Below are positions 15,519 through 35,635 of a DNA stretch of 64,000 nt, one piece after another. Source of the stretch: Prochlorococcus sp. AG-409-L18 (GTDB lineage Bacteria; Cyanobacteriota; Cyanobacteriia; PCC-6307; Cyanobiaceae); contig QCKG01000008.1 of NCBI GenBank assembly GCA_003215535.1, positions 1 to 64,000 on the forward strand, written 5' to 3'. The first letter of the stretch is position 1; each line of letters opens with the position of its first letter. The position numbers were made by a program, and so were the translations under genes. The notes beneath the pieces are model-generated. The model saw nothing but the letters and a program-made list of their open reading frames with translations, was not told the DNA's origin and ran no database searches.

Positions 15519-15526
15519 TTGGTCTT

Positions 15527-16445: not shown

Positions 16446-16464
16446 CGATCGATCCTCGTCGAAT

Positions 16465-17190: not shown

Positions 17191-17206
17191 TAAACTATCT
17201 TCTTTA

Positions 17207-18327: not shown

Positions 18328-18417
18328 AAAAATAAGCTTAAAGATTAATATGATGTTTAATATAAATTGGTACTCATTCTAATTCATGTATAATTAGATA
18401 CACAACTTTAATCCGGT

Positions 18418-18924: not shown

Positions 18925-19530
18925 AGTATCAACTGAACGCTGATTTTTTAAAGATAAAGTCCTATAGCAAGTCCGACATAATATAACCCTTTGAATATAA
19001 AGCAAAAAAGAACCCAGAGTGTGCAAAGAGCAGAGTGGCCTTATTTCTTTAGTTTTGCTCGCGATTTGCCTTGAGATCTAATAGCTTGATGTTATCTGAT
19101 TAATTAAGAGTGCTAGTAGGACAAGTAGCAATAGAAGTGGTTTCTACTGTCTTTGGATTTCCACTAAGGCAATTAGCACTAGTATGGAAATTTGCACCAG
19201 TACTTGTATGGAGTAACAGTTAATCCTTAATCAGGTCTAATACGAAAAATATAAAGAAAGTCAATCCTGAAAAAAGTAGTAAGCAAAAGCCAAGCAAACT
19301 TTAAATGTATAAAAATCAATTAGAGTGAATAGCAGTATTCAAAAAGCCTTGGGAAAACAAAGATTGCAATCAGAATCATGAGAAATGCTTTATTGGATAC
19401 TAGATCATCTAACTATCCAAAGCTAGACCTTGCTCATAGCCCTTTACCTTTAATACCTAAGAAGTAATTTTGTAGTTTCTACTATTGGTAAAATATAGAA
19501 GGAGAACTAAGCATAGTCTCAACTCTTTTT
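18925..19530. other. non-coding stretch before sulfotransferase gene
   Basis: About 600 bp without a credible frame or RNA gene. Confidence 0.45.
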
Positions 19531-20583: not shown

Positions 20584-20654
20584 GTCTAGACAAGTAATTT
20601 GATCAAGACTCGATTCAATACAGTTGATATTTTATAAAATTGATTCTAATCTAA

Positions 20655-21473
20655 TTAAAGAGAAAGTAGCTTTGGTGATATTTCATACATCAAATCAAAG
20701 CAACCTGCAAAATGTAAGAAAAAACTTTTTTTATAAAGCTCTATCACAAGTTGTTCAGTTGAATGACAATTCAAGGTTGGATCTATTACCTTTCCAATTT
20801 GATGAGGTGTTGCAAATCTGGTTGCATTAGTAAAGGGGAATACTAATTGATTATATCTATTTGGCATGACCTGCCAGGTTGTTGCTTGTAATGCAATATT
20901 AAAAGGTATCATCTCTCCCCATAGAGTTTGAATACCACCTTCTTCCCAATTATTATAAATATCTTTCAAAAATTTTTGATGATATTTAGGAGTGAATCCT
21001 ATAGTCCCAGTGTTAAATAAAGGTCGTTCTTTACTATTTAATCCCCATCCCTCAAAATATCCAACAGGCGTACTTATACCTTTACGTGAAGCTAATTCCT
21101 CTTGAGTCCATGACCAAGATCTTTTGAGCAATTTGCAATCACCAGAAAAATTGCTACCAGTCTCATGTGTGACAGCTATTTTATTAGGATCTAGATTTAC
21201 ATAGGGATCAGGAGAATCTGGATTAATTAAAATATCTGAATCAAGCCATAGGCATGTTTCATACTTCAACAGAGAAGGTTCAGCCATGACAAGCAGCTTT
21301 TGCCAGGCATGTGAACGTGATAATGCTCTGCTACTACTATCAATAGGTCCCTTATAAATAATCAGATCATAATTATGATTATTAGCCCAATGAGCCCAAT
21401 TAGAAGAGCATCTATTCTCCCATAATTCTAGGTAACGATTAGTAGCTAATGTAACTATTGCTCGAGATTTCAT
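20655..21473 (-). CDS. GT-A fold glycosyltransferase
   Basis: A 272-residue protein starting MKSRAIVTLATNRYLELWE. It carries a DxD metal-binding motif in CLWLDSDILINP (DSD at 78-80) and a downstream acceptor region with FNTGTIGFTP and FFLHFAGCFD. This pattern fits nucleotide-sugar transferases of the galactosyl/mannosyl GT-A type. It probably builds cell-surface glycan together with the converging sulfotransferase; the sugar donor is unknown. Confidence 0.7.
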   Translation of the reverse strand: MKSRAIVTLATNRYLELWENRCSSNWAHWANNHNYDLIIYKGPIDSSSRALSRSHAWQKLLVMAEPSLLKYETCLWLDSDILINPDSPDPYVNLDPNKIAVTHETGSNFSGDCKLLKRSWSWTQEELASRKGISTPVGYFEGWGLNSKERPLFNTGTIGFTPKYHQKFLKDIYNNWEEGGIQTLWGEMIPFNIALQATTWQVMPNRYNQLVFPFTNATRFATPHQIGKVIDPTLNCHSTEQLVIELYKKSFFLHFAGCFDLMYEISPKLLSL

Positions 21474-21810
21474 GATTTAAATAAATCGTTTTACCAAGAC
21501 GTAATGATGGAACTATAGATCCATAAATTGAAAACCATAGATAAAATTTAAAATTATCCAATGTGTAGACTAAGGATCTATTGATTCTTCCATCAAAGCA
21601 TGAAAGGCTTATCCAAAGCACATATCTAAGCTGAAAACACAATTAATCTCTTAAGGCCATTCAATTTATGACTCTTCTCAATAACATTGATAAAGAATAG
21701 TCATGCAATTCAAATCTCCAATCCATTTGATAAGTTCAAAGAATCTTCTTATAACCAATAGAATTATATTTCGGTATCTTTAAGATAATTCAAATCTAAG
21801 CTATAGACTG
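21474..21810. other. short non-coding stretch
   Basis: Nothing recognised; the right-hand part upstream of 21473 should contain the glycosyltransferase promoter. Confidence 0.4.
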
Positions 21811-22098
21811 TTAGCGATTGAAAAATGACCAGATTGACCATTCGTCTTTCATCTGAGTGTATTTCAAATCATCTTTTGAAAAATCATTTGATGCACTAAA
21901 AACTTGATAATCTGCCTCTTCTATGGCTACAAAAAAATAAACAAGGGCCATAAGAAAACTACATATTATCTTATCGGTATTAACTGCTAATTCTTTAATA
22001 GTAACTTTATCTCTAACTCCAATTAAAGGAAGCCTTACTTTATCTATACTAAAGGCTATATCATTCTTTGTCGTTTTTGATGAATTCTCCAGCTTCAT
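21811..22098 (-). CDS. hypothetical protein, 95 residues
   Basis: ATG at 22098 opens a frame with one central hydrophobic helix (ICSFLMALVYFFVAI) and a soluble tail ending WSIWSFFNR. No family, weak ribosome site. It could be a small membrane protein or chance. Confidence 0.35.
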   Translation of the reverse strand: MKLENSSKTTKNDIAFSIDKVRLPLIGVRDKVTIKELAVNTDKIICSFLMALVYFFVAIEEADYQVFSASNDFSKDDLKYTQMKDEWSIWSFFNR

Positions 22099-22172
22099 GC
22101 TTGAAAGTGCAATTTAAGAGAATTGTAGCTTAAAGGGTTCCTTTTTCTAGTGAATAACGTCCATCTAGAACC

Positions 22173-22373
22173 TCAGAAGGCTAAGGTGATTGAATACCCA
22201 GTATCAATCAGGTTTACAAGACACAAGTAAGAATTCTCCCCAAACACATAAGAAGGTGTGCTACGAGATAATGTATTTTGCTTTATATAAGCAAGTCTCG
22301 TCTTTAATTCGCTACCTTTTTGTGAGTCTTCGCTAATTTCCCAATAATTTTGGCTTCTCTCCAAAACAAGCAT
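22173..22373 (-). CDS. hypothetical protein, 66 residues
   Basis: Begins MLVLERSQNYWEISEDSQKG, a pattern like several small picocyanobacterial soluble proteins. The remainder is unremarkable. No function proposed. Confidence 0.4.
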   Translation of the reverse strand: MLVLERSQNYWEISEDSQKGSELKTRLAYIKQNTLSRSTPSYVFGENSYLCLVNLIDTGYSITLAF

Positions 22374-22685
22374 TATTCAACATTGGTTTAACAGTCAACT
22401 AATTGGAATAGTTTTTTAAGTTTTATCCTCAAATTATTCTAAAATAACACAAAAAATTGAACCATCTAAAGAAGTAAGATACTAAATTCTTTTAAGTATG
22501 TTTTGACCTATTTTCTATAGAAAATATACAGAAAGTCAATTAAAGATTAGCTCATAGACTTCACTTTATAGGGAATGTGAACAATAGGCCAAAAAAGATA
22601 TAAACTTGTTTAAAGGCTCTAATCAAGCCATGCTTGAATAAATACTTGTAAAAGAATTTGTCATCACTCTCTTGGTCATACTCTT

Positions 22686-23327
22686 ATGTGTAGTCAATAC
22701 GAACTTAAAACTGATCTAGATCAACTCCCCGATCAATTCAAAAACAATATGCCAAAAGGCCTTCTCCAATGTTACGAGCACCAATACCTCATAAAACCTA
22801 ATGATCCAGTCTTAGCTCTTCGACAAGAGCATAAAGCTATAAGCAGCTCGATCATGCTTTGGGGCTTTCTACCTCATTGGAGTAAAGACCCAATGCATTC
22901 TTTCAAGCCTTTTAATGCTAGAGCTGAAACTGTTCAGAAGAAAGTACCCTTTCGTGAAGCTTGGAGACATAGGAGATGCCTACTTCCAGCCACAGGTTTC
23001 TTTGAAAAAGACAAATTAATCCGAAAACAAAGCTATCAAGCTTTTTGGCTAGGAGGAATTTGGGAAAGGTGGTTAGGAGCTGATGGTAGCGAAATTGAAA
23101 GTTGCCTGATTCTCACTACGAAGCCGAATAGCTTGATAAAACCACTTCATAAAAGAATGCCTGTAATTATTCCCCAAGGCCTTGAAGAAAAATGGCTAGA
23201 ACAAACAGATGCAATAGGCCTGAAATCATTACAACCAATTCTGAATGGATGGGACCCAGAAGGATGGTCTGCCAAACCTCGTACGAAATCAAAAGTCACC
23301 AACCACCAACTCACTCTTTTTAGTTAA
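22686..23327 (+). CDS. SOS-response-associated (SRAP/YedK/HMCES) protein
   Basis: A 213-residue protein of the SRAP family, which covalently traps abasic sites in single-stranded DNA through Cys2. Visible: MCSQYEL with the catalytic Cys2, WGFLPHW, FNARAET with the conserved Asn and Glu region, RRCLLPATGFFE, and HKRMPVII with the conserved His. All key residues are in place. Its stop overlaps the ATG of a tiny membrane-protein gene (TAATG), starting a tight run of four such genes. Confidence 0.92.
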   Translation: MCSQYELKTDLDQLPDQFKNNMPKGLLQCYEHQYLIKPNDPVLALRQEHKAISSSIMLWGFLPHWSKDPMHSFKPFNARAETVQKKVPFREAWRHRRCLLPATGFFEKDKLIRKQSYQAFWLGGIWERWLGADGSEIESCLILTTKPNSLIKPLHKRMPVIIPQGLEEKWLEQTDAIGLKSLQPILNGWDPEGWSAKPRTKSKVTNHQLTLFS

Positions 23328-23521
23328 TGGACTCCTCATTTTCACAAGCTCTGAAATTAAGCAGCATGTCTTCTACAACGGCGATGGTCATTTGGGGTAT
23401 GGTGTTGTTTCTAATCGCTATTACAGTTGTAATTAGCCTATATTTCAAAAAACAAATAGATCTCAGCAAAAAAGTCAACGCATCAAAAATCACAAAAGAA
23501 TCTCAGTCAAAAGGATTCTAA
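23327..23521 (+). CDS. small single-helix membrane protein, 64 residues
   Basis: Overlaps the SRAP stop by one base. One hydrophobic helix AMVIWGMVLFLIAITVVISL is followed by a lysine-rich cytoplasmic-type tail. The ATG at 23366 (MSSTTAMVIWG) is an alternative start that would leave no overlap. Function unknown. Confidence 0.6.
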   Translation: MDSSFSQALKLSSMSSTTAMVIWGMVLFLIAITVVISLYFKKQIDLSKKVNASKITKESQSKGF

Positions 23522-23528
23522 TTACAAT

Positions 23529-23732
23529 ATGACTACAAAAATCCCACAGAGAATTAAGGCAAAAATAACACCTGTTAGATGGTCAGTTCGGACTAGCGCA
23601 ATAATTGCAAGTACACTTGCTGTAATTGACTTGATAAAACAAGAATATGCTTTAAGTTTGATATTAGGTGTATCATGGTTATTCATAGTGCAAGCAGAAA
23701 AGAGAATGTTCAAACCACCTACTGACAACTAA
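23529..23732 (+). CDS. small membrane protein, 67 residues
   Basis: Starts 7 bp after the previous gene with MTTKIPQRIKAKITPVRWSV. Two short hydrophobic stretches (TSAIIASTLAVIDLI; ALSLILGVSWLFIVQA) make a hairpin-like membrane protein. Second in the run of four small membrane genes behind SRAP. Confidence 0.6.
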   Translation: MTTKIPQRIKAKITPVRWSVRTSAIIASTLAVIDLIKQEYALSLILGVSWLFIVQAEKRMFKPPTDN

Positions 23733-23735
23733 CTT

Positions 23736-23909
23736 ATGGCTAGTTCTATTGTTGCAGCCGCTGTTGGTTTGAGTCCTATTGGATGGGCTGTAGCTGTAAT
23801 TTCTGGGCTTGCATTTCTTTCGATGTTTATTCTCGTTTCCATCAAAGGGGATTATCAAGGCGTCATTGCATCAACGCTAACAAAGCCATCAAGCAAAAAC
23901 GAGAAGTAA
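23736..23909 (+). CDS. small membrane protein, 57 residues
   Basis: Starts 3 bp after the previous stop. MASSIVAAAVGLSPIGWAVA is followed by VISGLAFLSMFILVSIKGDY and a polar tail. Mostly one or two membrane helices. The spacing strongly implies co-transcription with its neighbours. Confidence 0.6.
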   Translation: MASSIVAAAVGLSPIGWAVAVISGLAFLSMFILVSIKGDYQGVIASTLTKPSSKNEK

Positions 23910-23916
23910 ATAAGCA

Positions 23917-24114
23917 ATGAATACAGAAATAATGCTTGATAATCTTTTGAAAATGACCATATATAATCCCATTTTTGCATTTGTGACTATAGGCATAGTC
24001 TGGTTTCTCCCAGGCATTATTATCCGAAGAATAGCCAAAAGAAAATATCTTACATCTCAAAAAGAAAAGCAAGAAGAAGCTATCGCAAAGTTATACCCTA
24101 AAGACAAAAAATAA
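23917..24114 (+). CDS. small single-helix membrane protein, 65 residues
   Basis: Starts 7 bp after the previous stop (AAGCA before the ATG). One helix FAFVTIGIVWFLPGIII is followed by a strongly basic, charged tail RRIAKRKYLTSQKEKQEEAI. Last of the four-gene run. Confidence 0.6.
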   Translation: MNTEIMLDNLLKMTIYNPIFAFVTIGIVWFLPGIIIRRIAKRKYLTSQKEKQEEAIAKLYPKDKK

Positions 24115-24174
24115 TGCGCTTATCCTAGACATTTTCGATGATATGGAATGAATTAAGTCATTCTCAAATCTCAA

Positions 24175-24261
24175 ATGATTTTCGGACTTTTAGAAGATGC
24201 ATGTTTAAATATGTCCTTGGTCTTTCTTGGTTTTTCTAGTCTGGGCTTTCTATGGGTCTAG
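24175..24261 (+). CDS. possible 28-residue membrane peptide
   Basis: ATG at 24175 gives MIFGLLEDACLNMSLVFLGF and SSLGFLWV. It is hydrophobic and follows the membrane-gene run by 60 bp. It may be a real micropeptide or a truncated remnant. Confidence 0.3.
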   Translation: MIFGLLEDACLNMSLVFLGFSSLGFLWV

Positions 24262-24866
24262 AGGAAAGATTTACTCAAGATAAAGCAATCAAATATAAAA
24301 ACTAAGTATCATTGGGAATAAATAAATGAAATCAGTTGAGAATAAATAAAGGTCTAAAAAAATAGAACTGCTAAAAAGAGGAAGATCCAATATTTCTCGG
24401 GACCACTTTCTAGGCGAAGAGCTAATAATAACAAGCCCATCAGACACAAATTATTAGTTGCGGACTTAAAAAACTAGCAAGTACCGTGAAAGCAAAATTA
24501 GTTTTCAAAGAATTAATAACTTGATTGAGAATTGCAAAACTATAAAAGTTGTAGGCGAAACAAGCGCTCTACAAGTAAGTAACAATCCTAATAACACAAA
24601 TCACCCAACGTTTTCGCGCTTAAGAAGCCAGATCAGGACAGGATCAACTCAATCCTCTTACACAAAAATCAATCTACGCATAGGCCTAATTGCGGAGGGA
24701 ATACAACGGGAGCAAAAACACTCGAGCGTAAAGACGGATTTACACTCAGTCGTCTAATTGACTACACCAGAGATAGAGCAGTGGATTCAAGCTTCTGAGT
24801 TGCAAGTCCATGGTTTAGGAGAGTCTGCTCAGTCAGCTCGCCGACAATTTCACAACGAGGTTTCTC
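24262..24866. other. stretch without a convincing gene
   Basis: A 78-codon frame from a TTG at 24521 exists but has no ribosome site and an unusual composition, so it is not called. No RNA gene recognised. Confidence 0.4.
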
Positions 24867-25076
24867 ATGAACAATCACAGCCCATATACAGGAAAGTACT
24901 ACCCCAGTACAGAATCAACTAAAAGACGCTATTTAGAGATGAATCGAAGATTAGATGTCTTGCAATATAGACGTGAGAGATTAACTCATGAACTCCATGC
25001 AATTAATGCAGCATTATTCTCACTAAATCAACAAATGCTTAGAGATCAAGAATACAAGCAATTATCTTTACAATGA
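24867..25076 (+). CDS. small soluble helical protein, 69 residues
   Basis: ATG at 24867. MNNHSPYTGKYYPSTESTKR is followed by a helical stretch RYLEMNRRLDVLQYRRERLT and HELHAINAALFSLNQQMLRD. Short coiled-coil character, no membrane segment. Probably a small conserved picocyanobacterial protein; role unknown. Confidence 0.55.
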   Translation: MNNHSPYTGKYYPSTESTKRRYLEMNRRLDVLQYRRERLTHELHAINAALFSLNQQMLRDQEYKQLSLQ

Positions 25077-25089
25077 ATGAATAAGGAGA

Positions 25090-25948
25090 ATAGCTTGCCA
25101 GTGTCTAAATTAAATATCTCCTTGTAATCCTTCAAAGTATTTTTTCCTAAGCAATGGTCCAACATTATCTTGTTATAAACACCTCAAGCCTTCTCCTGCA
25201 ATTCAAAGAAATGCTGATCCCAGTCTAATGAATGGAAATGAGCCCATTTTCTCTGAAAGTTACTGGCTAAAAATCTAGCATTTGCTGTGCGACCATCTAC
25301 TATTATTAGAGTTCAAGGTTGAAGAAAATGCTCAAAAGAAAGTAAATCTGCTGCCATAGGCATACGATCCTGATGAGCTGTAGTCACACCTCGAATGTCT
25401 CCTTCTGCTGAGAGCTGATCTGGTCCATCTAAATAAATCAGATCAGGACAAAGGTTGGGTATAGGATCATAAAAAGTACAAATCCTACCTTTAAATTGAT
25501 CTATTATTAATCTGGCTAAATGCAGAGTAATTACTCCTTCTGATTCTAAAGCCTGGGGGATTTCATTCCTACACTTATCAAGCCAAATTTGATAGTTATC
25601 GACAGCATGGCATTCATAAAGGTTGACTCTTCTTAAACTTGTATTTGTAATATGAAAATAATTTTCTTTATTTCGACACAGTGCATCTCCAAAAACAATA
25701 GTGCTCTTACCAACTCCAAACTCAAGTATTGTTCTTACTTTCCTCTCTCTAGCTAAAAAATACAATCGTCATAGATCTGCAATTTTTGGCTGTAAGGATA
25801 TTTGATTTAAACTAATAGAAGCAGCTTTATTTTTACATAAAATATCTTCAAGATTTTCCTTCATACCTAATAATTCACAAAGGCCATAAGATAAAATATA
25901 ATCAAAATCTTCAGGAATTAAATCGCTTGCTTTGATTTCTCTAACTAT
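25090..25948 (-). pseudogene. SAM-methyltransferase-like gene with three in-frame TGA codons
   Basis: Read leftwards, one frame runs from 25948 to about 25090 with no frameshift but three TGA codons: 25769-25771 (between IADL and RLYFLARER), 25313-25315 (between FEHFLQP and TLIIVDGRTANARF), and 25184-25186 (between LQEKA and GVYNK). The core carries VRTILEFGVGKSTIVFGDAL (SAM-binding) and PDLIYLDGPDQLS. Sequence runs cleanly through each stop, so it was recently one protein. An N-terminal TAG precedes codon 1, so the true start may also be lost. Confidence 0.7.
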
Positions 25949-26065
25949 CTAGGAGCTGTCTAATTTACTCACTGAGCATTTTCAACAACGTTATCAGGTG
26001 ATTGAACATCTTATTAATCAAAGAATTATTCGCAATGATCTCAAATAAAATACAAATTTTTAAAT

Positions 26066-27016
26066 CTATTTCTTTATGAATTCATGAAAGAATTTTGCCT
26101 GGTAATTGCTTTCATTTTTCCACCAACAAAAAAGCCTAAATTGCAATTGATCCAATGCCTCTGGATTTGATATTATATCTAGTACAAAATTTGCAGCCTC
26201 CTCCCAATTAGAAAAAGTAGGCATTGGCACAGGATTGTAAAACAACCTAGATAAATCCCTTGGTGAAGTTATAAAAAGCGGGATTCCACCTAATTGAAGG
26301 GTTTCATAAAATCGAAAAGTCTCAAAATGAAAATGTCCTTCAGGGCATAGAACAAAAATTGAATCTAAAAGGATAGAAGTATAAGCCTGAGGTTGTATTC
26401 CTTTACCAAAAGTATCACCTTGATTTACATAACCGTCTGGAACAAGCTTGATAAAACATTCTAAAGCCTTTTTTCGTGAAGTTCCCTCCCACATAGTACC
26501 TATAAAACTCCATGCAAACTCTCTCTTTGACGAAGCTACCCATGGTGTATTTAGCAAAGTCCAGGGAGTCGGTCCCAGTGGTTTATTTTTAAGTTGTTTA
26601 TTATTATCATATCGGTCAAGTGGAAACTCTCTAACAATCGAAATATGATCTGGAAGGCTTAAATATAACTTATCCCCATCATGACCCTGTTCATCGCCTA
26701 TATGCCAGAGTAAAAGATTTTGATATTCTCTAAATGTATCTAATCGATTCTTACGAAGCTGTAAATAATAATTGGTTTGTTTATCTGTAAAAGAATCTGA
26801 ATCTATATAAACTCCAGCCTCAACAATAATTATCAGAGTGCCTTTTTCGATAGAAAAATTACATGAGCCATCGTAATCACCTTCATAACAGGTTACCTCA
26901 TTTAGGGAATAAGGCCTCAACAATTCAAGCATCCATTGACGTTGAAATGAAATTTGGGGATCACATCCCCAAACAATGACTACATCTGGCGGCTTATTTT
27001 TAAAAGAAGTAAACAT
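26066..27016 (-). CDS. exostosin-like glycosyltransferase
   Basis: A 316-residue protein. The C-terminal half carries the exostosin/GT47-type pattern: FAWSFIGTMW (about 170), DSIFVLCPEGHFHFETFRFY (about 218-237) and ETLQLGGIPLFI, the region that binds the nucleotide sugar in GT-B enzymes of this group. The first 150 residues are more variable. It probably adds sugars to surface glycan. It is full length with no stops, unlike the neighbouring methyltransferase remnant. Confidence 0.7.
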   Translation of the reverse strand: MFTSFKNKPPDVVIVWGCDPQISFQRQWMLELLRPYSLNEVTCYEGDYDGSCNFSIEKGTLIIIVEAGVYIDSDSFTDKQTNYYLQLRKNRLDTFREYQNLLLWHIGDEQGHDGDKLYLSLPDHISIVREFPLDRYDNNKQLKNKPLGPTPWTLLNTPWVASSKREFAWSFIGTMWEGTSRKKALECFIKLVPDGYVNQGDTFGKGIQPQAYTSILLDSIFVLCPEGHFHFETFRFYETLQLGGIPLFITSPRDLSRLFYNPVPMPTFSNWEEAANFVLDIISNPEALDQLQFRLFCWWKNESNYQAKFFHEFIKK

Positions 27017-27803
27017 AAGAAAATATTAAAACCTCACTGCTTTTAAAGGTGGTTTGACGGGAAAATTGTGCTTCTTTAAGCCCATAATCGACATTAATTT
27101 AAAAATGAAGTTTCAAATTAAATGATTGCAAGAGTCCTTATTGAAAAGACTGGTTAAGAAAGACGAATTATTGATCGGAAAGTTAATTGTAATAGAAGAT
27201 TATAGATTACGACTGATTGCTTTGTATAAAAACAAATGTGATGAAATAATTCTCTTATATTGGCTCCAAGTCAGACCACGGCTGGTAATACCGTCGATGC
27301 CATTGGTAGCCATCAAACCGTTAATGGGAATAGAGGAACTTCTGTCCAAACAGCCTCCTAGGAACAAGAAGCCTTAGCAACCTTTCACTTATTTGGAGAA
27401 ATCAATCAGCGAAGTGCATAGGAGCTATTGATAGAAGGGGTTTTATGAAATGAAAAAGCTGCAATTTTTGAGCAAAACTGGATACCTATATCCGGGCATT
27501 CAATTGCCCAGAAGCTATCTATTCAATTGCAAAATCTACCTACTCAACTTTTTACCTTAAGTTAAAGCTGCCAACTCTTTTCTAGATTTCACCTCAGAAG
27601 TAACTGATGATTCTTGAAAATAGCTTTAACGTAGATTTAATCACTTATCGAATCTCGCTACAAATCCTTCCTATCTACCTCAAAGCAATGATTCATTGAT
27701 TTAATTTACTTGTATTGTATAGCTTAAGAAGCCAGCGTATAGCCATTTTAAATATAAATAAATAACCCCTTATGTTCATTCCATCTTTTACATCTTCAGC
27801 TAT
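27017..27803. other. non-coding stretch before the argJ-derived array
   Basis: Contains an 83-codon frame from a TTG (27126) not judged real, and a weak resemblance to the argJ repeat at 27084-27098. No RNA gene recognised. Confidence 0.4.
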
Positions 27804-27823
27804 GCTGTGTAGTCGGCATTGAT
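27804..27823. repeat. argJ 3'-end repeat, copy 1 (distal boundary)
   Basis: GCTGTGTAGTCGGCATTGAT, the reverse complement of an argJ-like ending INADYTA-stop. Phased octamers occur only to its right, as expected for the outer end of the array. Confidence 0.75.
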
Positions 27824-27894
27824 ACAGATATTCGGTCTTTTGATTACAGATGTTATTTTGAGATCAGTCATATCAATGATTTAAAGAAGGTTTT

Positions 27895-27935
27895 TAATCA
27901 CAAGTTAGTCACAATGCCCTTTCAATTTAGTCACA
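27895..27935. repeat. phased octamers beside copy 1
   Basis: TAATCACA at 27895, TAGTCACA at 27906 and TAGTCACA at 27928: spacing 11 and 22 bp. Candidate recombinase arm sites. Confidence 0.7.
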
Positions 27936-28187
27936 GTTAGGTCTGAAAGATAAAGCCTGAAGACACCTTCTAGTTATTGCAGTTCATTTGCTCGACTCAG
28001 AAAAGGTTCGCATACAACAAATGGTCGCAAAAGTATCACAATTTTTAGAAGGTGTGTATTCAACAAAAATGCATTTAATTATGAATCTAATAATTAATTA
28101 ACTACCAGAAATTCATACAAGTCCACCAAATGAATCTTGATCATTCTAAGCAAATTTGAATTCATGATCTAGCAATCTCTAATTAAT
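27936..28187. other. non-coding stretch
   Basis: No gene seen; a further ATCACA-type octamer occurs near 28035. Confidence 0.35.
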
Positions 28188-28367
28188 TCAACTGCCCTTC
28201 GACAACCACTTGAATGCCCAATAACCCAAGAAAGCAACGATTACCCAAGGAATGAGTGCTCTGATGACCCAAAGGGAAAGGAGCAGAACTAATGCAGAAA
28301 GGACAACCCGCTTCGTCATTGCCTTCGCGCCATCAGTCATGTATTCCCATCGAGGGATTAGAGACAT
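28188..28367 (-). CDS. small membrane protein, 59 residues
   Basis: ATG at 28367: MSLIPRWEYMTDGAKAMTKR, then a hydrophobic hairpin VVLSALVLLLSLWVIRALIP and WVIVAFLGYWAFKWLSKGS. The aromatic, basic composition is typical of small inner-membrane proteins. A GC-rich hairpin (28429-28456) lies upstream. No family recognised, but the frame is clean. Confidence 0.6.
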   Translation of the reverse strand: MSLIPRWEYMTDGAKAMTKRVVLSALVLLLSLWVIRALIPWVIVAFLGYWAFKWLSKGS

Positions 28368-28428
28368 GGATTCAGAGTTTGTTCCCTTCCTTTTTAGTGT
28401 ATTGAACTGATTTCAGTAAGGCATTAAG

Positions 28429-28456
28429 AAGGGCGGGGTATTTCGATCCCGCCCTT
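28429..28456. other. GC-rich hairpin
   Basis: AAGGGCGGG and CCCGCCCTT form a perfect 9-bp stem with a 10-base loop in AT-rich DNA. Without a T-run it could be a Rho-dependent stop, a 5' leader element or an old element end. Confidence 0.6.
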
Positions 28457-28590
28457 TGAGTCAAGCACTTATTTTTTTGGAACTGTTGTGCCTTAACTTC
28501 TTATTCAATCCTAATCAATCTGGACTAGGAGAACATGAAACAAAACACCTGTCTTATTATGGAAATCAATTAAGAGAGGAATATTGAGTT

Positions 28591-28761
28591 ATGAATAGAA
28601 AAAGAGAGAAAATCTGGACTGCAATCATTGCAACTAAACAATGGTTCACCAAACTATTCAAAAGTGAAGTAGATGCTTTAGTTGATGATTTCAGCAATAA
28701 TCCACCACCAGAAATAGGGACTCAACCTTACTCAGGTAACGTTAATGACAAAGGTGACTGA
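28591..28761 (+). CDS. small soluble protein, 56 residues
   Basis: ATG at 28591, preceded by AGAGAGGA. MNRKREKIWTAIIATKQWFT, then KLFKSEVDALVDDFSNNPPP and a polar tail. It has a basic N-terminus and an acidic middle. Unknown function; a good ribosome site supports translation. Confidence 0.5.
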   Translation: MNRKREKIWTAIIATKQWFTKLFKSEVDALVDDFSNNPPPEIGTQPYSGNVNDKGD

Positions 28762-29223
28762 CTATCACCACAGGGTAGATAAACTCTCATGAATCTTCAG
28801 AAAGCAATAAGTCTTGGATATGGGCGATAGACAAAAGTGATATACAAATCAGATAATGGAAAATCGTTTAACCAAAAACAGGCAATACATCTGTTGGTAT
28901 CCTTAGTCGCCACTGACACCAACTCAGAAAAGAAGTGGAGGGGGTTCTATAACCTCCTCTCAGGTGCTGCACTACAGGATGAGTACTGGAAATCTTGAAG
29001 GGGTTAGAATCTGATATTAATAAATGAATGGAAGAGAAATTAAAGAAAATTTTAAGTAGCACTAATAGTAATAAAAAGAGATGGTTTATCTAGTTGCAGA
29101 AAGGGATATAAGCGACACAAAAATCATGGTAGGGTATTTTCGATAGAATTTGATTTTACCGTTCAAACCCATTCACACAGGTCTAATATTTGCCGAAATG
29201 AAAGAACACCCTCTTCGCTCCAA
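28762..29223. other. non-coding stretch
   Basis: Holds an imperfect hairpin near 28941-28962 (GAGGGGGTT/AACCTCCTC) but no credible gene. Confidence 0.35.
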
Positions 29224-29280
29224 ACTCAAACATACTGCACCACACGGTCTTAAAGTCCTTGTGGTGCAGTATGTTTGAGT
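29224..29280. other. 21-bp perfect inverted repeat upstream of TPR-SGNH gene
   Basis: ACTCAAACATACTGCACCAC plus A (29224-29244) pairs perfectly with 29260-29280; the loop is 15 bases. It lies 60 bp before the TPR-SGNH start. It may act as a bidirectional terminator, a leader hairpin or a palindromic repeat element. Confidence 0.85.
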
Positions 29281-29339
29281 AATACAACCTTTCAACGTTT
29301 CACGTCATCTGCAATGGCTAATCGCAGTGGAGCTTCTAT

Positions 29340-31007
29340 TTGATGACCGTTGATGCTGAAACTGTATTCCAACAAGGAATGCGGTATCAGTTTGAGAATA
29401 AAAAAGAAGAAGCTTATATAGCATTCAAAAAGACAGTCAAACTAAATAAGAGGCACGCCTATGCTTGGGCCAACATTGGTCTTTATTTGCTAGAAAAAGG
29501 CTGTGTAACTGAAGCAGTAAAGGCGACCAAAAACTTTATAGCCCTAGAACCCCATAACTTAAAAGGATATATAAATCTTGGCTTGATGTTTAAGGAACAA
29601 AAAGAATTGGGTAGAGCTATAAGAACCTTTACTAAAATACTAGAACATTATCCCGAGCATTCAGATGCAAATACGAACTTAGCTGCTCTTTCTAATGAAG
29701 TTGGAAACTTGGGAAAAGCAATCAAATACTCTCAAAAAGCAATCAAGTTGAATCCTTATAATCCAATTTGCTATAAAAACTTAGCGGATGTATATAGAAA
29801 AAAAGAGAAAATATCTGCAGCCTCTAGATCAATACAAACTGCTATTTTTATAGATCCTTTAACTCCTGGCCTTCACGTAAGTAAAGCACACATATTACTT
29901 GAAAGTAATTTGTTAGAAAATGCTGAAAGGTCTGCTAGAAATGCCATCAGATTAAAATCAGACCTTCCAACCGCATATCTTATCCTGGGCCTCATTAAAT
30001 TTGAAGAAGGTGATTTAGATGAATCAATCAATGTACTCAAAAGGGCAATAGAATTAGATCCATGTCTTGTCGAAGCTGTTGTTAATCTTGGAATTATTTA
30101 TTCATATAAGGGCTTAAATAGCAAATCCAACTATTTGTTAGGAAGGGCTATTAATCTAGCTTATTTACAGGTAGATTTACTTGTAAATATAAAGGTTTGG
30201 CAAGCAATTAATTATTTCTTACTAGGGGATCTTTGTTTGGCTAATGAAACTATTATTGAATCTAGTATAATACTTAAAAAAAAGGATGGAATTGCATATA
30301 GAGATAAGCGCTCTAAGAAGCATAACTTAGGATACATTTCTTTTTTATTAAAGCTGATTCCTTTAACTAGCAATAATAAGCCTCTACCAGAAACCCGTAA
30401 TATCCATCATATAGGTGACAGTCATTGCCTTAGCTTTGCCTTTAAGAATCTAACAATAAATGACCAAACTTACAATATAAAGCCATTACTTGTGCAAGGA
30501 GTCAAGGCTTGGCATTTAGCAAGTAACAAGCCAAATAGATTTCAGTCATCCTTTTTAGGTCAAATCAAAGGTCTTGACGATTCTTCCCCACTATTTGTAT
30601 CTATAGGAGAAATTGATTGTCGAGATGATGAAGGTATACTTTTGCATTCTAGAAAGTACAACAAAAATAGTGAAAACGTTTGCTTGGAAACAACATCTGG
30701 GTTTATTAAATTTCTTGCTAATAAGGTTTCAAAAAGCGCCAAGAACATATATATTTTAGGTACTCCTGCACCTGTTATTAATAACAACATATCAATGCTT
30801 TCTTCAAATGAGAAAGACAGGATAAAGTTGGTTCGGATATTTAATAATCAGTTGAAGGAACAATGTTACACTTACAATTTTAATTTTATTGATGTATATG
30901 AATACACCAAGGATTCTAACGGTGTAAATAATAATAGACATCTTTGTGATGGGATTCATCTGAACCCAGATTCACTTTTTGATCTATTTAATTTCCACGA
31001 GGCCTAG
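29340..31007 (+). CDS. TPR-repeat protein fused to SGNH/GDSL-like domain
   Basis: A 555-residue protein. Residues about 5-300 are some eight TPR units (for example AYAWANIGLYLLEKGCVTEA, SDANTNLAALSNEVGNLGKA). The C-terminal domain starts at IHHIGDSHCLSFAF (GDSH at about 357-360, nucleophile Ser) and ends with DGIHLNPDSL (Asp-x-x-His near 535), the catalytic pair of SGNH hydrolases. It may esterify or de-esterify surface glycan, with the TPR part docking partners. No signal peptide seen. It is the main cargo of the distal argJ unit. ATG at 29340 or 29343 both fit. Confidence 0.8.
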   Translation: MMTVDAETVFQQGMRYQFENKKEEAYIAFKKTVKLNKRHAYAWANIGLYLLEKGCVTEAVKATKNFIALEPHNLKGYINLGLMFKEQKELGRAIRTFTKILEHYPEHSDANTNLAALSNEVGNLGKAIKYSQKAIKLNPYNPICYKNLADVYRKKEKISAASRSIQTAIFIDPLTPGLHVSKAHILLESNLLENAERSARNAIRLKSDLPTAYLILGLIKFEEGDLDESINVLKRAIELDPCLVEAVVNLGIIYSYKGLNSKSNYLLGRAINLAYLQVDLLVNIKVWQAINYFLLGDLCLANETIIESSIILKKKDGIAYRDKRSKKHNLGYISFLLKLIPLTSNNKPLPETRNIHHIGDSHCLSFAFKNLTINDQTYNIKPLLVQGVKAWHLASNKPNRFQSSFLGQIKGLDDSSPLFVSIGEIDCRDDEGILLHSRKYNKNSENVCLETTSGFIKFLANKVSKSAKNIYILGTPAPVINNNISMLSSNEKDRIKLVRIFNNQLKEQCYTYNFNFIDVYEYTKDSNGVNNNRHLCDGIHLNPDSLFDLFNFHEA

Positions 31008-31068
31008 AACTACTAAACATGAAAAATTATAGTATGCTAATCGAGTGTAAAATTTCAACTGAAAATGA

Positions 31069-31335
31069 CTAGTCATACTCGATCATAAACGTAAATAAAA
31101 AGCTTGTTATACTTTGTCTTCCTTGTATTTCATACCAACGCTCTCTTGCATAAGTGAGTGCTTTCTCTACATCGTCTTGCTTAGTACTTTCACGAATAAC
31201 ACCTTCATGCTCAGTTTTTATATACAACTTACATTTATTAGTTTTAGGTCGCTTGTAGATATAAGTTATTTTCTCTCCATCAAAAACATCTATAGGTTCT
31301 TGAACCCAAGATCCACCTTGACGGGCACGAGGCAT
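31069..31335 (-). CDS. integrase-like N-terminal fragment
   Basis: An 88-residue frame starting MPRARQGGSWVQEPIDVFDG with KITYIYKRPKTNKCKLYIKT, a beta-rich layout like the N-terminal arm-binding region that precedes tyrosine recombinase domains in picocyanobacterial islands. The C-terminus stops abruptly (FMIEYD) and no catalytic domain follows. It starts about 120 bp from argJ repeat copy 2, with two phased octamers between. The family call is an inference of moderate weight; it could instead be a stand-alone small protein. Confidence 0.45.
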   Translation of the reverse strand: MPRARQGGSWVQEPIDVFDGEKITYIYKRPKTNKCKLYIKTEHEGVIRESTKQDDVEKALTYARERWYEIQGRQSITSFLFTFMIEYD

Positions 31336-31363
31336 TCAAAACCGACGGACATGACCATAAGGT

Positions 31364-31382
31364 TAGTCACACTTTAGTAACA
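31364..31382. repeat. phased octamers beside copy 2
   Basis: TAGTCACA at 31364 and TAGTAACA at 31375, exactly 11 bp apart, on the distal-unit side of argJ repeat copy 2. Confidence 0.65.
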
Positions 31383-31453
31383 GTGCCAGATTTTGACTAC
31401 GCAATCAGATAATTTTCTAGTTATACCAAGCGATTTACATTGTCCCAAAAACT

Positions 31454-31475
31454 AGGTCGTGTAGTCGGCATTAAT
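31454..31475. repeat. argJ 3'-end repeat, copy 2
   Basis: GTCGTGTAGTCGGCATTAAT within a 22-bp match to the argJ end (2 differences). The reverse complement would encode INADYTT-stop. AGTCATAGCAAG follows 20 bp further, as in copies 1 and 3. Confidence 0.8.
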
Positions 31476-31653
31476 CTGAAGATGATAGATAGATCCTAGT
31501 CATAGCAAGGATTCTGCTTATTGAGAGAGCTGGTACAAATTCGCTAGAATAATAAGTTCAGATGAGCACTGGATTCCTTTTTTCTACCGGTATAAAACTG
31601 GTACAGCATCAGGCAATCTCATTCCATTATAACCGTGATTGATATGCATAAGA

Positions 31654-32742
31654 TTAATTTTTCAAATAACTAATAAATTGATTGGCAATTGACTTATCAA
31701 TAGCAAGATAATTAGACCAATGAAAATCTTCAAAAGTAATTTCATATTTAGGTCTGAGCTCTACACCTTCAGGCATTATTCTTGCTAATAAATATTCTCC
31801 TGCTAATAAAGAATAAAAATCATAAAGTGTATTAGAGGCTAAACTTGTATTAACTCCATATTCAAATTGAATCATTCTTATTAACCTATTCTCAATCAAT
31901 GACTTGAATCCTTTAATTACTTCAAGCTCAGAACCTTCTGTATCTACCTTCAAATAATCAATAGTCTCAATATTATTAGAAATACAATAATCATCTCCTC
32001 TCATAAGTTCAATTCTTTCAGGTCTTTCTATTTTCTCAGAAAAGGAGTCGCCTACCTTTGAAATTGTTGATGCTAAAACATTGTCTTTTGAGCTCTTAAA
32101 TAAATCGAATTCACCATTTTTGTGTGACAAGCCAAATGATCTGATAAAGACTTCATGCAAATTATTTGTATTAGAAATTGCCTTAAACCTTTCATTTAAA
32201 GCATTTGCAAGATAAGTCTGCGGCTCGAATGAATGAATTGCTATTCCGTAATTTAATTTTAAAGCTTCATGAATAAAATCCCCTTTATTGGCTCCTACAT
32301 CAAAAACTATGAGTGGATTACTTTTTTCGCCTAAATAAGATAAGGCTGAAGTCAATATCTCAGATTCACCACTTTGTTCAATATTCAATGCTTGAGCATG
32401 ATAACCAAACTCAAACTGTCTGATTAGGTTCTTTATTCCTTCATTGCCTTCTTCATTAGCCACAATTCTAAAAAAATTACCAAATGTTCTGATTGCATGT
32501 AATACTTCCAAAGAACTGTTAAAAGATTTATTGATATTGCTCGTAATTTTTTCTTGAAGATGATTCAATATTGTTTTATATTTTTGTTTATCTTTAAAAT
32601 CAGTCTGATTAAAAGAATCAAATAAAGAATCTATTAAAATGGCCAATACAGAAGGAGAAATCTTCTCTTGATTTAAACCGTTTATAAATTCTGATTGTTT
32701 TTTATAAGGAATAAAATTGGTATGAAATTTCGATTGGTTCAT
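31654..32742 (-). CDS. FkbM family methyltransferase
   Basis: A 362-residue protein with a variable N-terminal helical region (1-140) and a C-terminal FkbM domain: SAM motif VFDVGANKGDF (146-156), DYLKVDTEGSELEVIKGF, IQFEYG, and a closing segment FEDFHWSNYLAI. FkbM enzymes O-methylate sugars or other hydroxyl groups; in islands of picocyanobacteria they usually modify surface glycans. Cargo of the middle argJ unit. Confidence 0.85.
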   Translation of the reverse strand: MNQSKFHTNFIPYKKQSEFINGLNQEKISPSVLAILIDSLFDSFNQTDFKDKQKYKTILNHLQEKITSNINKSFNSSLEVLHAIRTFGNFFRIVANEEGNEGIKNLIRQFEFGYHAQALNIEQSGESEILTSALSYLGEKSNPLIVFDVGANKGDFIHEALKLNYGIAIHSFEPQTYLANALNERFKAISNTNNLHEVFIRSFGLSHKNGEFDLFKSSKDNVLASTISKVGDSFSEKIERPERIELMRGDDYCISNNIETIDYLKVDTEGSELEVIKGFKSLIENRLIRMIQFEYGVNTSLASNTLYDFYSLLAGEYLLARIMPEGVELRPKYEITFEDFHWSNYLAIDKSIANQFISYLKN

Positions 32743-32816
32743 GTCGTATAAACGGGATTGATACGAACGTTTCTTGATATTTCACTGATAGCAAGACTTT
32801 AGAGCGATGAGATTAG

Positions 32817-32896
32817 TGTGACCAAAACGTGACCAATCAGCGAAACCCCTACTAACCACTTGCCCTAAGTAATCAGAGTGTGACCAAGCTGTGACT
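32817..32896. repeat. two pairs of phased octamers inside the middle unit
   Basis: TGTGACC at 32817 and CGTGACC at 32828, then TGTGACC at 32879 and TGTGACT at 32890. Both pairs are 11 bp apart and are the reverse complement of the octamers elsewhere. They suggest that the middle unit is itself two fused insertions. Confidence 0.65.
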
Positions 32897-32958
32897 AAAT
32901 GTCAACCCAGAGAAGTCCTTTTAGACTGAAAGCTATGAAGACTTAACCTCTCTATTCG

Positions 32959-33630
32959 ATGAATGCATTCTCTATCGCAAAAAAATCATTTTTTAAGCCT
33001 TTTGACAAAGACTTAATTCGAATGATTTCTCCTACTTATTTAATTTTAATTGGATTAGCAAATTTTATTAACTACATATCAAATTATCAAAAAGACTTAT
33101 CACCTCAATTTTGGTCTATATTTCTACTGTTCTTAGGTTCACTACTCTACTTCCCAATATTAATAACAGGCTTGCGTTCTAATGAAGCAAATTTAAGATT
33201 TAAATTACCTCCAATAAATTTGATTCTCAAGAAAAGTTGGAAAATATTTATAGCTGGAATCATACCTACAATTTTTATTATGCTAGGGACTCTTTGTTTA
33301 ATAGTTCCAGGAATATTTCTTGCAAAAAGATATGTTTATGTAGCATTAGTGACTGAAAAAGAAATGATAGGACCTTTAGAGGCTATGCGAAAAAGTCGAA
33401 CTCTCTCTCAAATAAATGGTTGGTCCGTAATCTTAGGATCAATATACTGCGCTATTCCATATGCAATCTTATCTTTACTTATAACATTATTAGTTGATCC
33501 CAAAATAAATACTTCTATGCCAATCATCTTAGGTGCATTTGTTGCAGCTATTTTAGGATGGTTTACTACTATTTCTACAAATTCCGTTGCATTTCTAGGT
33601 TATTTAAATGCAGAGAAAACCAACATATAG
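32959..33630 (+). CDS. YciC-like multi-pass membrane protein
   Basis: A 223-residue protein with five or six hydrophobic helices. Segment LCLIVPGIFLAKRYVYVALV followed by EKEMIGPLEAMRKSRTLSQI and NGW is the conserved hallmark of YciC/UPF0259- and GDPD-associated membrane domains. Function of the family is poorly defined (envelope-related). Cargo of the middle argJ unit. Confidence 0.65.
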   Translation: MNAFSIAKKSFFKPFDKDLIRMISPTYLILIGLANFINYISNYQKDLSPQFWSIFLLFLGSLLYFPILITGLRSNEANLRFKLPPINLILKKSWKIFIAGIIPTIFIMLGTLCLIVPGIFLAKRYVYVALVTEKEMIGPLEAMRKSRTLSQINGWSVILGSIYCAIPYAILSLLITLLVDPKINTSMPIILGAFVAAILGWFTTISTNSVAFLGYLNAEKTNI

Positions 33631-33685
33631 GAATGGTTTTCTCTTTTTAGCGATGATTTAGGAAGTCTTTATACGTTCTCATTTA

Positions 33686-33703
33686 TGTGACTTATGTGTG
33701 ACC
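33686..33703. repeat. phased octamers left of copy 3
   Basis: TGTGACT at 33686 and TGTGACC at 33697, 11 bp apart, on the middle-unit side of argJ repeat copy 3. Confidence 0.65.
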
Positions 33704-33750
33704 GAAAAAAGTCGAAGCTGAGATATACTGGTATGACTAAAAGTTGTGCT

Positions 33751-33772
33751 AAGTCGTGTAATCGGCATTAAT
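33751..33772. repeat. argJ 3'-end repeat, copy 3
   Basis: AAGTCGTGTAATCGGCATTA and the next bases match the argJ end with two differences. In reverse, the sequence before the stop reads VRINADYTT, as in ArgJ proteins. Confidence 0.85.
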
Positions 33773-33855
33773 ACGCACCTTTTGGATGTGTAATACAAAC
33801 CTTTTTTAGAGGTCAGTCATAGCAAGTTATTTAAAGCACTAAAAAGAAGAAATAG

Positions 33856-33896
33856 TTATCACACAATTATCACAATCGAGTCACAGAGTTATCACA
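33856..33896. repeat. four octamers at exact 11-bp period
   Basis: TTATCACA at 33856 and 33867, GAGTCACA at 33878, TTATCACA at 33889. Perfect helical phasing; candidate arm sites at the inner end of the argJ-proximal unit. They end 9 bp before the stop of the repeat-protein gene. Confidence 0.8.
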
Positions 33897-33904
33897 CCTT
33901 CTTA

Positions 33905-34252
33905 CTAGCAAGAAGTTCCTCCATAACTGTCGGTGTAGCAATTCACTCTACTGCCACCAATTGAACCAGAAGTTCCTCCATAACTATCGGTATATAAATT
34001 CACTCTACTACCACCAATTGAACCAGAAGTTCCTCCATAACTATCGGTATATAAATTCACTCTTCTGCCACCAATTGAACCAGAAGTTCCTCCATAACTA
34101 TCCCTATATATATTCACACGCTCCCCAGCACTGTTGGTTCCACTACAACCCCCATAACTATCACAGTAAACATCAGCATAAGACTGCGTAGTTACACCTA
34201 GCAATCCACTAAGAGAAAGAGCAGCAGCAACTAGAAAGTTGGAAGTTTTCAT
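33905..34252 (-). CDS. secreted 19-residue-repeat protein
   Basis: A 115-residue protein. Residues 1-26 (MKTSNFLVAAALSLSGLLGV, then TTQSYA) are a Sec signal peptide. Five tandem units of the form VNLYTDSYGGTSGSIGG-SR follow, the third and fourth identical. Cysteines occur only in the first (Cys30, Cys36) and last (Cys105, Cys115) units, suggesting disulfide caps on a small solenoid. Exported to periplasm or surface; no function known. It is the sole gene of the argJ-proximal unit. Confidence 0.75.
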   Translation of the reverse strand: MKTSNFLVAAALSLSGLLGVTTQSYADVYCDSYGGCSGTNSAGERVNIYRDSYGGTSGSIGGRRVNLYTDSYGGTSGSIGGSRVNLYTDSYGGTSGSIGGSRVNCYTDSYGGTSC

Positions 34253-34268
34253 TTTCTTTGCTGAATAG

Positions 34269-34287
34269 TTATCACATTCTAATCACA
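34269..34287. repeat. phased octamers on the argJ side
   Basis: TTATCACA at 34269 and TAATCACA at 34280, 11 bp apart; one more TTATCACA lies at 34347, just before the argJ stop. Confidence 0.7.
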
Positions 34288-34357
34288 CCATCGCAAAATG
34301 TATTACACACATAATGCGTCTTTATAGTGATACCAATGCTTTTGAGTTATCACAAAA

Positions 34358-35635
34358 TCAGGTCGTGTAATCGGCATTGATCCGAATATATTTCTCTGAG
34401 AGGTCACAACCCCAAGCAATTGCATCCCCTGGGCCAGAACCAACTACCATTCTAATTAAAATTAAATCATCTACTAAATAATTACCACTTAAACACTTCT
34501 GCATGTATCTAGATATGATTTCTCTATCCTCCTTGCATGGCTTACCTTCACGCAATAATTGATAAGGTCCCAACCATAAAGAAATATCGTCATTTTTAAA
34601 AAATACTCCTGCTCTCCCTGCAGCTGCGACTATGCGACCCCAATTTGGATCACATCCATGAATTGCTGTCTTTACTAAAGATGAGCCAGCAATCGTACGT
34701 GCAATTCTACGAGCTTCACTCACATCTACTGCCCCTTGAACAACTACTTCAATCAAACAATTCGCACCTTCCCCATCTCGAGCAATAGCCTTGGCAAGAT
34801 ACTGTGAAACAAGCGTTAACCCAATCTCTAATTCATCTAGATACTCCTCTGCCAAAGGGGCCCCTGCTGAAAATGCAAGAAATGAGTCGTTTGTACTTGT
34901 ATCCCCGTCAACGGTGATTGCATTAAACGATCTGTCCACGACTCTTTTAATCATTTGTTGCCACAATTGAGAAGGAACCCCTACATCGCAACTCAGAAAA
35001 GCCAACATCGTCGCCATATTGGGGTGAATCATCCCTGAACCCTTTGCCATCCCACCAATACGAACACAGCGACCTCCAAGATGAGCTTCTAATGCGAACT
35101 GCTTCTCCACAAGGTCTGTAGTCAAAATGGCATTTGCTGCCGCTGAGCCTCCCGCTTCACTCAATTCATCTATAAGCTCATTCAAAGAATCAAGAAGATG
35201 ACTTATAGGTATTGGAACACCAATAACTCCTGTAGAACACATCAAAACCTCTTCAGGAAGTATTTCCAGACGACTTGCAAGTTCTTGCGTTGCTCGCAAA
35301 CTATCAATTAATCCCAAATCACCAGTACAAGCATTGGCTTGACCCGAATTAATAAGTACGGCTCTTGCTTTACCCAAGGTCTCTTGCAATCGATTTACGC
35401 AAAGATCCACACATGCAGCCCTTAACAAAGACTGGGTAAAAGTTCCTGCACAAATAGAGCCTGCTGGAGCAAGCAACAAAGCAAGATCAGACTTGGAGGA
35501 TTCCTTGAGATTTGCAGTAATCCCTGATGCCTTAAATCCCCTTGGAGCTGTGATGCCTCCAGGAATAACAGACCATACTGAAGAAGCCGGAAGGCTCAAA
35601 ACATTAAAAGAAAAACTAACTTCATCTTCAACCAT
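34358..35635 (-). CDS. argJ: bifunctional ornithine acetyltransferase / N-acetylglutamate synthase
   Basis: A 425-residue enzyme that recycles the acetyl group in arginine biosynthesis. Visible: WSVIPGGITAPRGFKASGI near the N-terminus, the self-cleavage site GMIHPNMATMLAFLSCD (about 200-216, cut before Thr), TNDSFLAFSAG, and the conserved C-terminus IRINADYTT. It self-cleaves into alpha and beta chains. Its last 22 bp are copied three more times downstream, implying that the 3' end is an attachment site; the gene itself is intact. Its start codon overlaps the divergent coaE start. Confidence 0.96.
   Translation of the reverse strand: MVEDEVSFSFNVLSLPASSVWSVIPGGITAPRGFKASGITANLKESSKSDLALLLAPAGSICAGTFTQSLLRAACVDLCVNRLQETLGKARAVLINSGQANACTGDLGLIDSLRATQELASRLEILPEEVLMCSTGVIGVPIPISHLLDSLNELIDELSEAGGSAAANAILTTDLVEKQFALEAHLGGRCVRIGGMAKGSGMIHPNMATMLAFLSCDVGVPSQLWQQMIKRVVDRSFNAITVDGDTSTNDSFLAFSAGAPLAEEYLDELEIGLTLVSQYLAKAIARDGEGANCLIEVVVQGAVDVSEARRIARTIAGSSLVKTAIHGCDPNWGRIVAAAGRAGVFFKNDDISLWLGPYQLLREGKPCKEDREIISRYMQKCLSGNYLVDDLILIRMVVGSGPGDAIAWGCDLSEKYIRINADYTT

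Follow-up and report, generated by a model that had tools for sequence, protein, structure and literature searches.

The 3′ end of argJ as a probable attachment site for tandem, mostly one-gene integrative units in picocyanobacteria

Integration at gene ends and islands that grow by addition are already known kinds of genome change. Islands and integrative elements lie at the 3′ ends of protein genes such as mnmE/trmE, guaA, prfC and, for the staphylococcal cassette chromosome (SCC), rlmH; a recombinase acts there at a conserved gene end, the reading frame is restored, direct repeats are left, and tandem insertions are known. Integron cassettes carry one gene each, accumulate at one site and can be exchanged one by one. 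Cis-mobilizable elements (CIME) and mini elements resembling miniature inverted-repeat transposable elements (MITE) keep their ends without a recombinase gene and are presumed to be moved in trans. The accessible part of one source describes tycheposons as tRNA-linked elements of 4–200 kb with marine hosts, a tyrosine recombinase and variable cargo, and fGI-2 as an additive flexible genomic island with repeats of a tRNA end, the 20-bp gene-end copies marking the island (PMC10872708). Here we describe a locus that resembles each of these in part. It lies downstream of argJ in Prochlorococcus sp. AG-409-L18, within positions 1 to 64,000 of contig QCKG01000008.1 (the window, a stretch of 64 kb).

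In marine and freshwater picocyanobacteria, a family of tyrosine-recombinase elements very probably uses the 3′ end of argJ as its bacterial attachment site (attB); many members would be non-autonomous derivatives, mostly of one gene. Serial insertion at this gene end, as the first-pass annotation of the window had proposed, is strongly supported by the comparison of sequences, which brings out arrays across genera, array-free sites, linked integrases, arms and exchange of units. Relative to the islands at mnmE, guaA, prfC and rlmH, the argJ elements have a different target, include many one-gene units below 3 kb with arms of their own, and bring several arm families to one site across the organism family. 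The fGI-2 island, as far as its description was available, differs in that the present array sits at argJ, has identified integrases and paired arms, and is made of small units with mostly single genes. In contrast to CIME and MITE-like elements, the argJ units mostly carry single-gene cargo and form ordered arrays at one host gene. The literature searched, a search that reached few subscription papers, gave no account of argJ as an integration site; the first-pass annotation likewise knew of none.

In the window, argJ ends in INADYTT and a stop codon, as first read, and this end recurs downstream. The 17-mer GTGTARTCGGCATTRAT is exact at 27807, 31459, 33756 and 34365 (argJ), always on the + strand; at up to three mismatches it has seven window matches, a number that none of 100 shuffles attains (mean 0.37). 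A weight matrix for the core, trained on 68 copies from other genomes with the window excluded, finds five sites at 45.3, 41.6, 36.9, 36.2 and 28.5 bits. The next window site scores 7.0, the maximum in 15 random 64-kb strands is 10.6, and the best site on the opposite strand scores −2.9. To the left of 27800, the matrix detects no decayed older core exceeding this null. The five copies share one orientation:

34358–35635, − strand: argJ, from its ORF (open reading frame) and translation; the last 24 bases (34358–34381) are the putative attachment core, 41.6 bits
33749–33772, − strand: core copy at the boundary of the secreted-protein and membrane-protein units; exact 17-mer, 45.3 bits
32739–32762, − strand: degenerate core copy at the boundary of the membrane-protein and FkbM units; three mismatches in the 17-mer, 28.5 bits
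31452–31475, − strand: core copy at the boundary of the FkbM unit and unit 1; 17-mer, 36.2 bits
27800–27823, − strand: core copy that closes the recognisable array on the side away from argJ; 17-mer, 36.9 bits

The repeats first reported at 27804, 31454 and 33751 in one orientation are borne out by the exact 17-mers and by the matrix. The earlier division into three units keeps its boundaries and loses its number: a core at 32739–32762 lies between the FkbM and membrane-protein genes, so the middle unit is two, and the array holds four units of 609, 1010, 1287 and 3652 bp. The FkbM start codon (32740–32742) falls within this degenerate core. The roughly 50 bp said to be common after copies 1 and 3 are real but gapped, 79% identical over 43 bp, and belong to one of several recurring families of unit ends.

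Since the copies derive from a conserved coding end, they could have arisen by partial duplication of the gene, or could form a regulatory or terminator element that is conserved. Strong conservation spans roughly the final 24 bases and ends with the stop codon; in the 8 bases before the core it is weak. The copies bound whole exchangeable units, some with integrases alongside, and no further GTGTARTCGGCATTRAT site occurs at up to two mismatches elsewhere in the assembly (1,775,338 bases in 43 contigs, 90% complete). These features make duplication or a regulatory element hardly credible.

We compared argJ loci at the family level in 400 genomes, among which the window genome is the sole member of its genus; at least 351 of them contain argJ. 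Among the matches listed, several genomes display rows of cores beside argJ in one orientation. The extra copies mostly keep the reading-frame end ACNACNTRA. We took 40 stretches downstream of argJ and then 20 more around integrases, leaving out L088, L093 and L096, where argJ lies outside the stretch taken. Multi-core regions were chosen preferentially, so that the proportions 28/38 and 41/58 are not frequencies, and the less biased figure is 9/21. This figure counts the named picocyanobacterial loci with extra argJ-end copies within 10 kb downstream of argJ at up to 6 mismatches in 24 (a number that three of the nine reach), against 0/57 in other bacteria. The named loci were collected by argJ similarity and sorted by record title into picocyanobacteria and the rest, 2/80 being excluded for want of a full argJ end; the reverse-strand control gives 0/78. 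A separate 29 loci with at most 1.5 kb downstream contain a copy in five cases (L006, L010, L015, L024 and L029). Seven of the nine copy-bearing loci are Prochlorococcus with a more divergent argJ (52–54% identical), probably high-light types, and their copies resemble their own argJ variant (ATTAATAGCGAATATAC and the like), which indicates that the copies follow the host gene. Named cases of copy-bearing loci include Prochlorococcus sp. AG-363-K07 (L109) and Vulcanococcus sp. Clear-D1 (L131).

Array-free sites, with a single argJ end, had been predicted for some strains. At L099 an ABC-transporter gene begins 26 bp after argJ with no array; at L100, from the same genus, the two genes are separated by a single 1182-bp unit, and the transporter gene starts 44 bp beyond the first base of the second core. 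L079 is a less clean case: there a hupE-like gene follows argJ at 217 bp, as against a distance of 17.9 kb in the window. Conserved spacing with conserved genes, or a random spread of the repeats over the genome, had been named as grounds for giving up serial insertion, and the comparison did not refute it on either count.

A scan of 25 genomes with PF00589 locates recombinases within the arrays of G027 and G172. The proteins P0002, P0003 (G027), P0004 (G194) and P0005 (G023) are tyrosine recombinases: PF00589 gives them 21.2–28.2 bits against a cut-off of 27.1, with two of the four above it, and residues R258, K295, R384, H385 and Y416 are invariant across 18 homologues. A profile search with an argJ integrase matches lambda Int, and the predicted structure (predicted local distance difference test, pLDDT, 81) matches Tn1549 Int, XerH, Cre and an integron integrase. 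The genes fall into two classes by position. Class A genes start about 120 bp after the argJ-proximal core and run in the direction of argJ; class B genes, which are directed back at argJ, begin some 90–210 bp short of the distal core.

P0002-like matches occur in 44 of the 400 genomes, and 39 of these, all but G024, G271, G296, G313 and G345, were placed relative to argJ and the cores. Among the matches listed, 20 of the 44 genomes have one at most 15 kb downstream of argJ, the window remnant included, and in another 10 it adjoins a core that lies farther away or on a different contig (8 read directly, 2 by position). Every match at least 44% identical lies at argJ or a core, apart from one in G345, which is outside the 39. 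We also notice that eight integrase-bearing units (L065, L102, L103, L185, L188, L192, L195 and L196) encode one further protein family, whose L185 member is a serine resolvase according to Pfam.

The relatives and the window together provide 68 complete units; an integrase or what remains of one is present in 22 (median 6420 bp) and absent from 46 (median 1354 bp). The argJ elements might be tycheposons using one more site, as they have the same hosts, a tyrosine recombinase and cargo modules, and 19 of the 22 integrase-bearing units exceed 4 kb. The available description of tycheposons nevertheless gives tRNA genes as the site and 4–200 kb as the size (PMC10872708), whereas the site here is a protein gene and 37 of the 68 units measure 0.6–3 kb. 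ARAGORN finds no tRNA within the argJ array. We regard this identification as possible though rather doubtful.

The small units are simple. Among the 37 integrase-less units below 3 kb that have an ORF, exactly one ORF of at least 90 aa is present in 32 and two in the other five, and units of 133, 133 and 205 bp hold little beyond their two ends. The ends form families, built by single linkage, in which L1 may chain several families. Left and right families pair with each other (15 units are L1/R1 and 9 are L2/R2), and in the 45 units with both ends classed, none of 20,000 shuffles reaches the observed mutual information. Some pairs are common to units with and without integrase, namely L1/R1 and, with unit 1 of the window, L6/R5. 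The two ends of one unit share 446 same-strand 8-mers over 65 units, against a mean of 119.7 and a maximum of 173 in 500 draws of mismatched partners; the reverse-complement control gives 134.

In two window units, this likeness of the ends resolves into short repeated motifs:

31374–31382 and 31363–31371: L-side arms of unit 1, TGTGACTAA-like
27927–27935, 27905–27913 and 27894–27902: R-side arms of unit 1, TGTGACTAA-like
34279–34287 (two mismatches, read by eye) and 34268–34276: L-side arms of the 609-bp unit, TGTGATAAC-like
33888–33896, 33866–33874 and 33855–33863: R-side arms of the 609-bp unit, TGTGATAAC-like

In unit 1 the distances between these sites and the core are 70 and 81 bp on the left and 71, 82 and 104 bp on the right; in the 609-bp unit they are 71 (the site read by eye) and 82 bp on the left and 83, 94 and 116 bp on the right. 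The spacing (11; 11 and 22) is identical in both units. Judged from their motifs and placement, the arms on both sides of the core look like the arm sites of a phage-type attachment site (attP). A single arm motif for all units, ATTGSTATSACTR, was tried as well; it fits a part of them, being present in 26 of 52 upstream flanks against 2.9 expected, and was replaced by family-specific arms.

Several units appear at different places in different arrays. L085 and L087 have a unit in common at 97.8% identity over 1553 bp, against 90.7% over 1200 bp for their argJ genes; it occupies the second place in one array and the fourth in the other (where no far core was found), and in L089 a version with 89% identity over 1726 bp comes first. 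L087 (third) and L095 (fourth) each contain a cyanase unit, the two being 93% identical over 1344 bp, and a cyanase with the same L-end family also occurs within an integrase-bearing element (L189). Between genera, end segments of about 160 bp are 85–86% identical (L064 versus L098 and L100); the cargo ORFs of L064 and L100 are unrelated by BLAST.

Exchange of units would look alike if integrases had founded the islands and the present shuffling of small units were RecA-type homologous recombination between cores and arms, with cassettes that are not integrase substrates. Cores and arms supply 24 to 200 bp of common sequence, and 46 of the 68 units have no integrase. On the other hand, the paired arm families match those of integrase-bearing elements, and homologous recombination needs none. 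The units of 133, 133 and 205 bp and the one-gene units occur at the same site across genera whose argJ genes are about 62–68% identical in the pairs compared, and a 24-bp core is short for homologous recombination. We judge this explanation improbable.

For the argJ elements as substrates of their own integrases, we propose the following scheme. Each element would be built as L arm, cargo and R arm, and its circular junction would be attP, with the argJ-end core of about 24 bp between direct-repeat arm sites. Integration would restore the argJ reading frame and push the old argJ end outward, leaving argJ ready for the next insertion, so that units stack. Autonomous units of about 3.6–11.5 kb would carry an arm-binding integrase beside one end, argJ-proximal in class A and distal in class B. 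Most units may have lost the integrase or never had one, and these would be mainly one-gene cassettes that keep matching arms and probably rely on the integrases of their arm family, acting in trans, for excision and integration. In the window, unit 1 seems to keep the N-terminal, presumably arm-binding, part of an integrase.

Several observations weigh against this scheme. Neither an excised circle nor a transfer has been observed, and the circular intermediates, the mobilisation in trans and the vehicle are what we infer. In 12 of the 21 named picocyanobacterial loci, no extra copy is found within the stretch available. The L099 versus L100 junction is weak at the DNA level (61% versus 52%), so that the case rests on the neighbour gene in common. 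The stretch after argJ in L079 belongs to end family L1 and may hold a remnant, and a hupE-like gene inside a core-bounded unit in L085 and L089 weakens the L079 case further. For four integrase fragments (the second of L194, that of L197 and two in L198), no core lies within 250 bp. Nine of the 44 genomes have a P0002-like match, 23–31% identical, that lies neither at argJ nor beside a core as far as looked, a core not having been sought in G122 and one of two matches having been inspected in G284. In the tree, integrase classes A and B do not form one clade that excludes non-argJ integrases (support 0.48). An intact argJ-type integrase is lacking from the window assembly (90% complete), whose units may be dead relics; its sole PF00589 match is a 393-aa frame elsewhere, and most other genomes scanned have one match of similar length. 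The ends of the 1287-bp FkbM unit fall outside every shared family, with no arms recognised. Viral contigs yielded none with the standard 24-mer core in a search that did not include the divergent Prochlorococcus variant, and 84 pattern matches in an integrase scan, none confirmed; phage records yielded no class B relative by tblastn, a search not extended to class A. A phage or satellite as the vehicle was considered and set aside on these viral and phage results.

The four units of the window and their cargo are as follows:

33773–34357, no strand: 609-bp unit with one small secreted repeat protein; from the sequence, the unit table and L/R motifs in common
33905–34252, − strand: secreted repeat protein of 115 aa, cargo; ORF
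32763–33748, no strand: 1010-bp unit with one 223-aa membrane-protein gene
32959–33630, + strand: membrane-protein ORF of 223 aa, cargo; judged a membrane protein by the look of its sequence
31476–32738, no strand: 1287-bp unit with an FkbM methyltransferase
31654–32742, − strand: FkbM-domain methyltransferase, cargo; PF05050, E 2.1e-15
27824–31451, no strand: unit 1, 3652 bp; end family L6/R5, common to integrase-bearing elements
29340–31007, + strand: TPR plus SGNH/GDSL-like protein, cargo of unit 1; TPR families in Pfam
31069–31335, − strand: truncated tyrosine integrase N-terminus of 88 aa, beside the core as in intact elements

The 115-aa protein has no Pfam family above its cut-off, and the 223-aa ORF has no Pfam match. 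The 1010-bp unit contains GTGACC repeats at 32815–32836 and 32877–32898, and its R end belongs to family R4 along with units of L085 and L089. In the TPR protein, GDSL lipase models score E 0.012 and 0.017, below their cut-offs. The 88-aa ORF is 57% identical to the start of P0002 over 94 aligned columns, and its distance from the core is similar to that of the L065, L184 and L185 integrases. Because of this resemblance and like placement, unit 1 is best read, from its sequence, as a decayed autonomous element. As the largest unit keeps only the N-terminal part of an integrase, the window array could probably move in this cell only if an intact element arrived.

The cargo in relatives is varied. 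Ten small-unit proteins sampled with Pfam include cyanate lyase, a C5 DNA methylase, a formyltransferase, an outer-membrane barrel, a matrixin-type peptidase, RTX repeats and domains of unknown function (DUFs), two of the ten having no Pfam match. Larger units contain a serine resolvase, a second small tyrosine recombinase, a ParB/DNA methylase, HsdM and Nif11 leader peptides, the last of which we take to be lanthipeptide precursors. A run of Nif11-leader peptide genes extends over two successive units of L194 (G070), with nine family members, one of them Pfam-tested; this suggests that lanthipeptide-type Nif11 precursors can spread by the argJ-element route. The second unit of L065 (G027), 11.5 kb long, has an apparent type I restriction-modification operon, with the HsdM-like protein confirmed on the L090 homologue only.

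On balance we lean slightly towards a broader view, in which gene capture resembling that of integrons takes place without an integron: mostly one-gene cassettes would be exchanged family-wide at the argJ end, each with a full attP and family-specific arms, by a few travelling integrases acting in trans. In contrast to integrons, the argJ integrases lie inside mobile core-bounded units with no fixed platform, the cargo orientation is mixed (in the 37 small units the longest ORF runs against argJ in 20 and with it in 17), and the sites have the look of a core with arms and not of attC. An IntI-type assignment of the argJ integrases finds no support in NCBIfam, where the matches are far below cut-off. 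If this view is true, genes of ecological relevance, cyanase and DNA methylases among them, move often one at a time among streamlined genomes. Single-gene uptake by streamlined ocean cyanobacteria is an open question, tycheposons in the part of their description available being tRNA-linked and at least 4 kb long. A protein-gene site with recognisable cassette ends allows recently moved genes to be listed directly across many genomes, and mobilisation in trans becomes testable with defined integrases and attachment sites of a few hundred bp. The argJ end may also serve as an integration site for genetics in organisms with few tools.

Beyond the array, the roughly 11 kb at 17000–27800, between it and the hupE-like gene, contain a sulfotransferase-like ORF (by its look) and glycosyltransferase- and methyltransferase-like genes. 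The weight matrix recognises no core there; we do not claim this stretch as an array, and it is possibly an older island. The hupE-like gene itself (about 15818–16444, − strand) is preceded by a cobalamin riboswitch at 16458–16603, and a hupE-like homologue lies downstream of argJ in 10 of the 58 stretches searched, window included. Elsewhere in the window, a second tmRNA-like copy (15487–15781) follows the tmRNA (12255–12578) about 3 kb downstream in the same orientation. The two are 90% identical over 259 bp and score 168.5 versus 298.5 bits to the Rfam model, and the second copy may mark another integration site.

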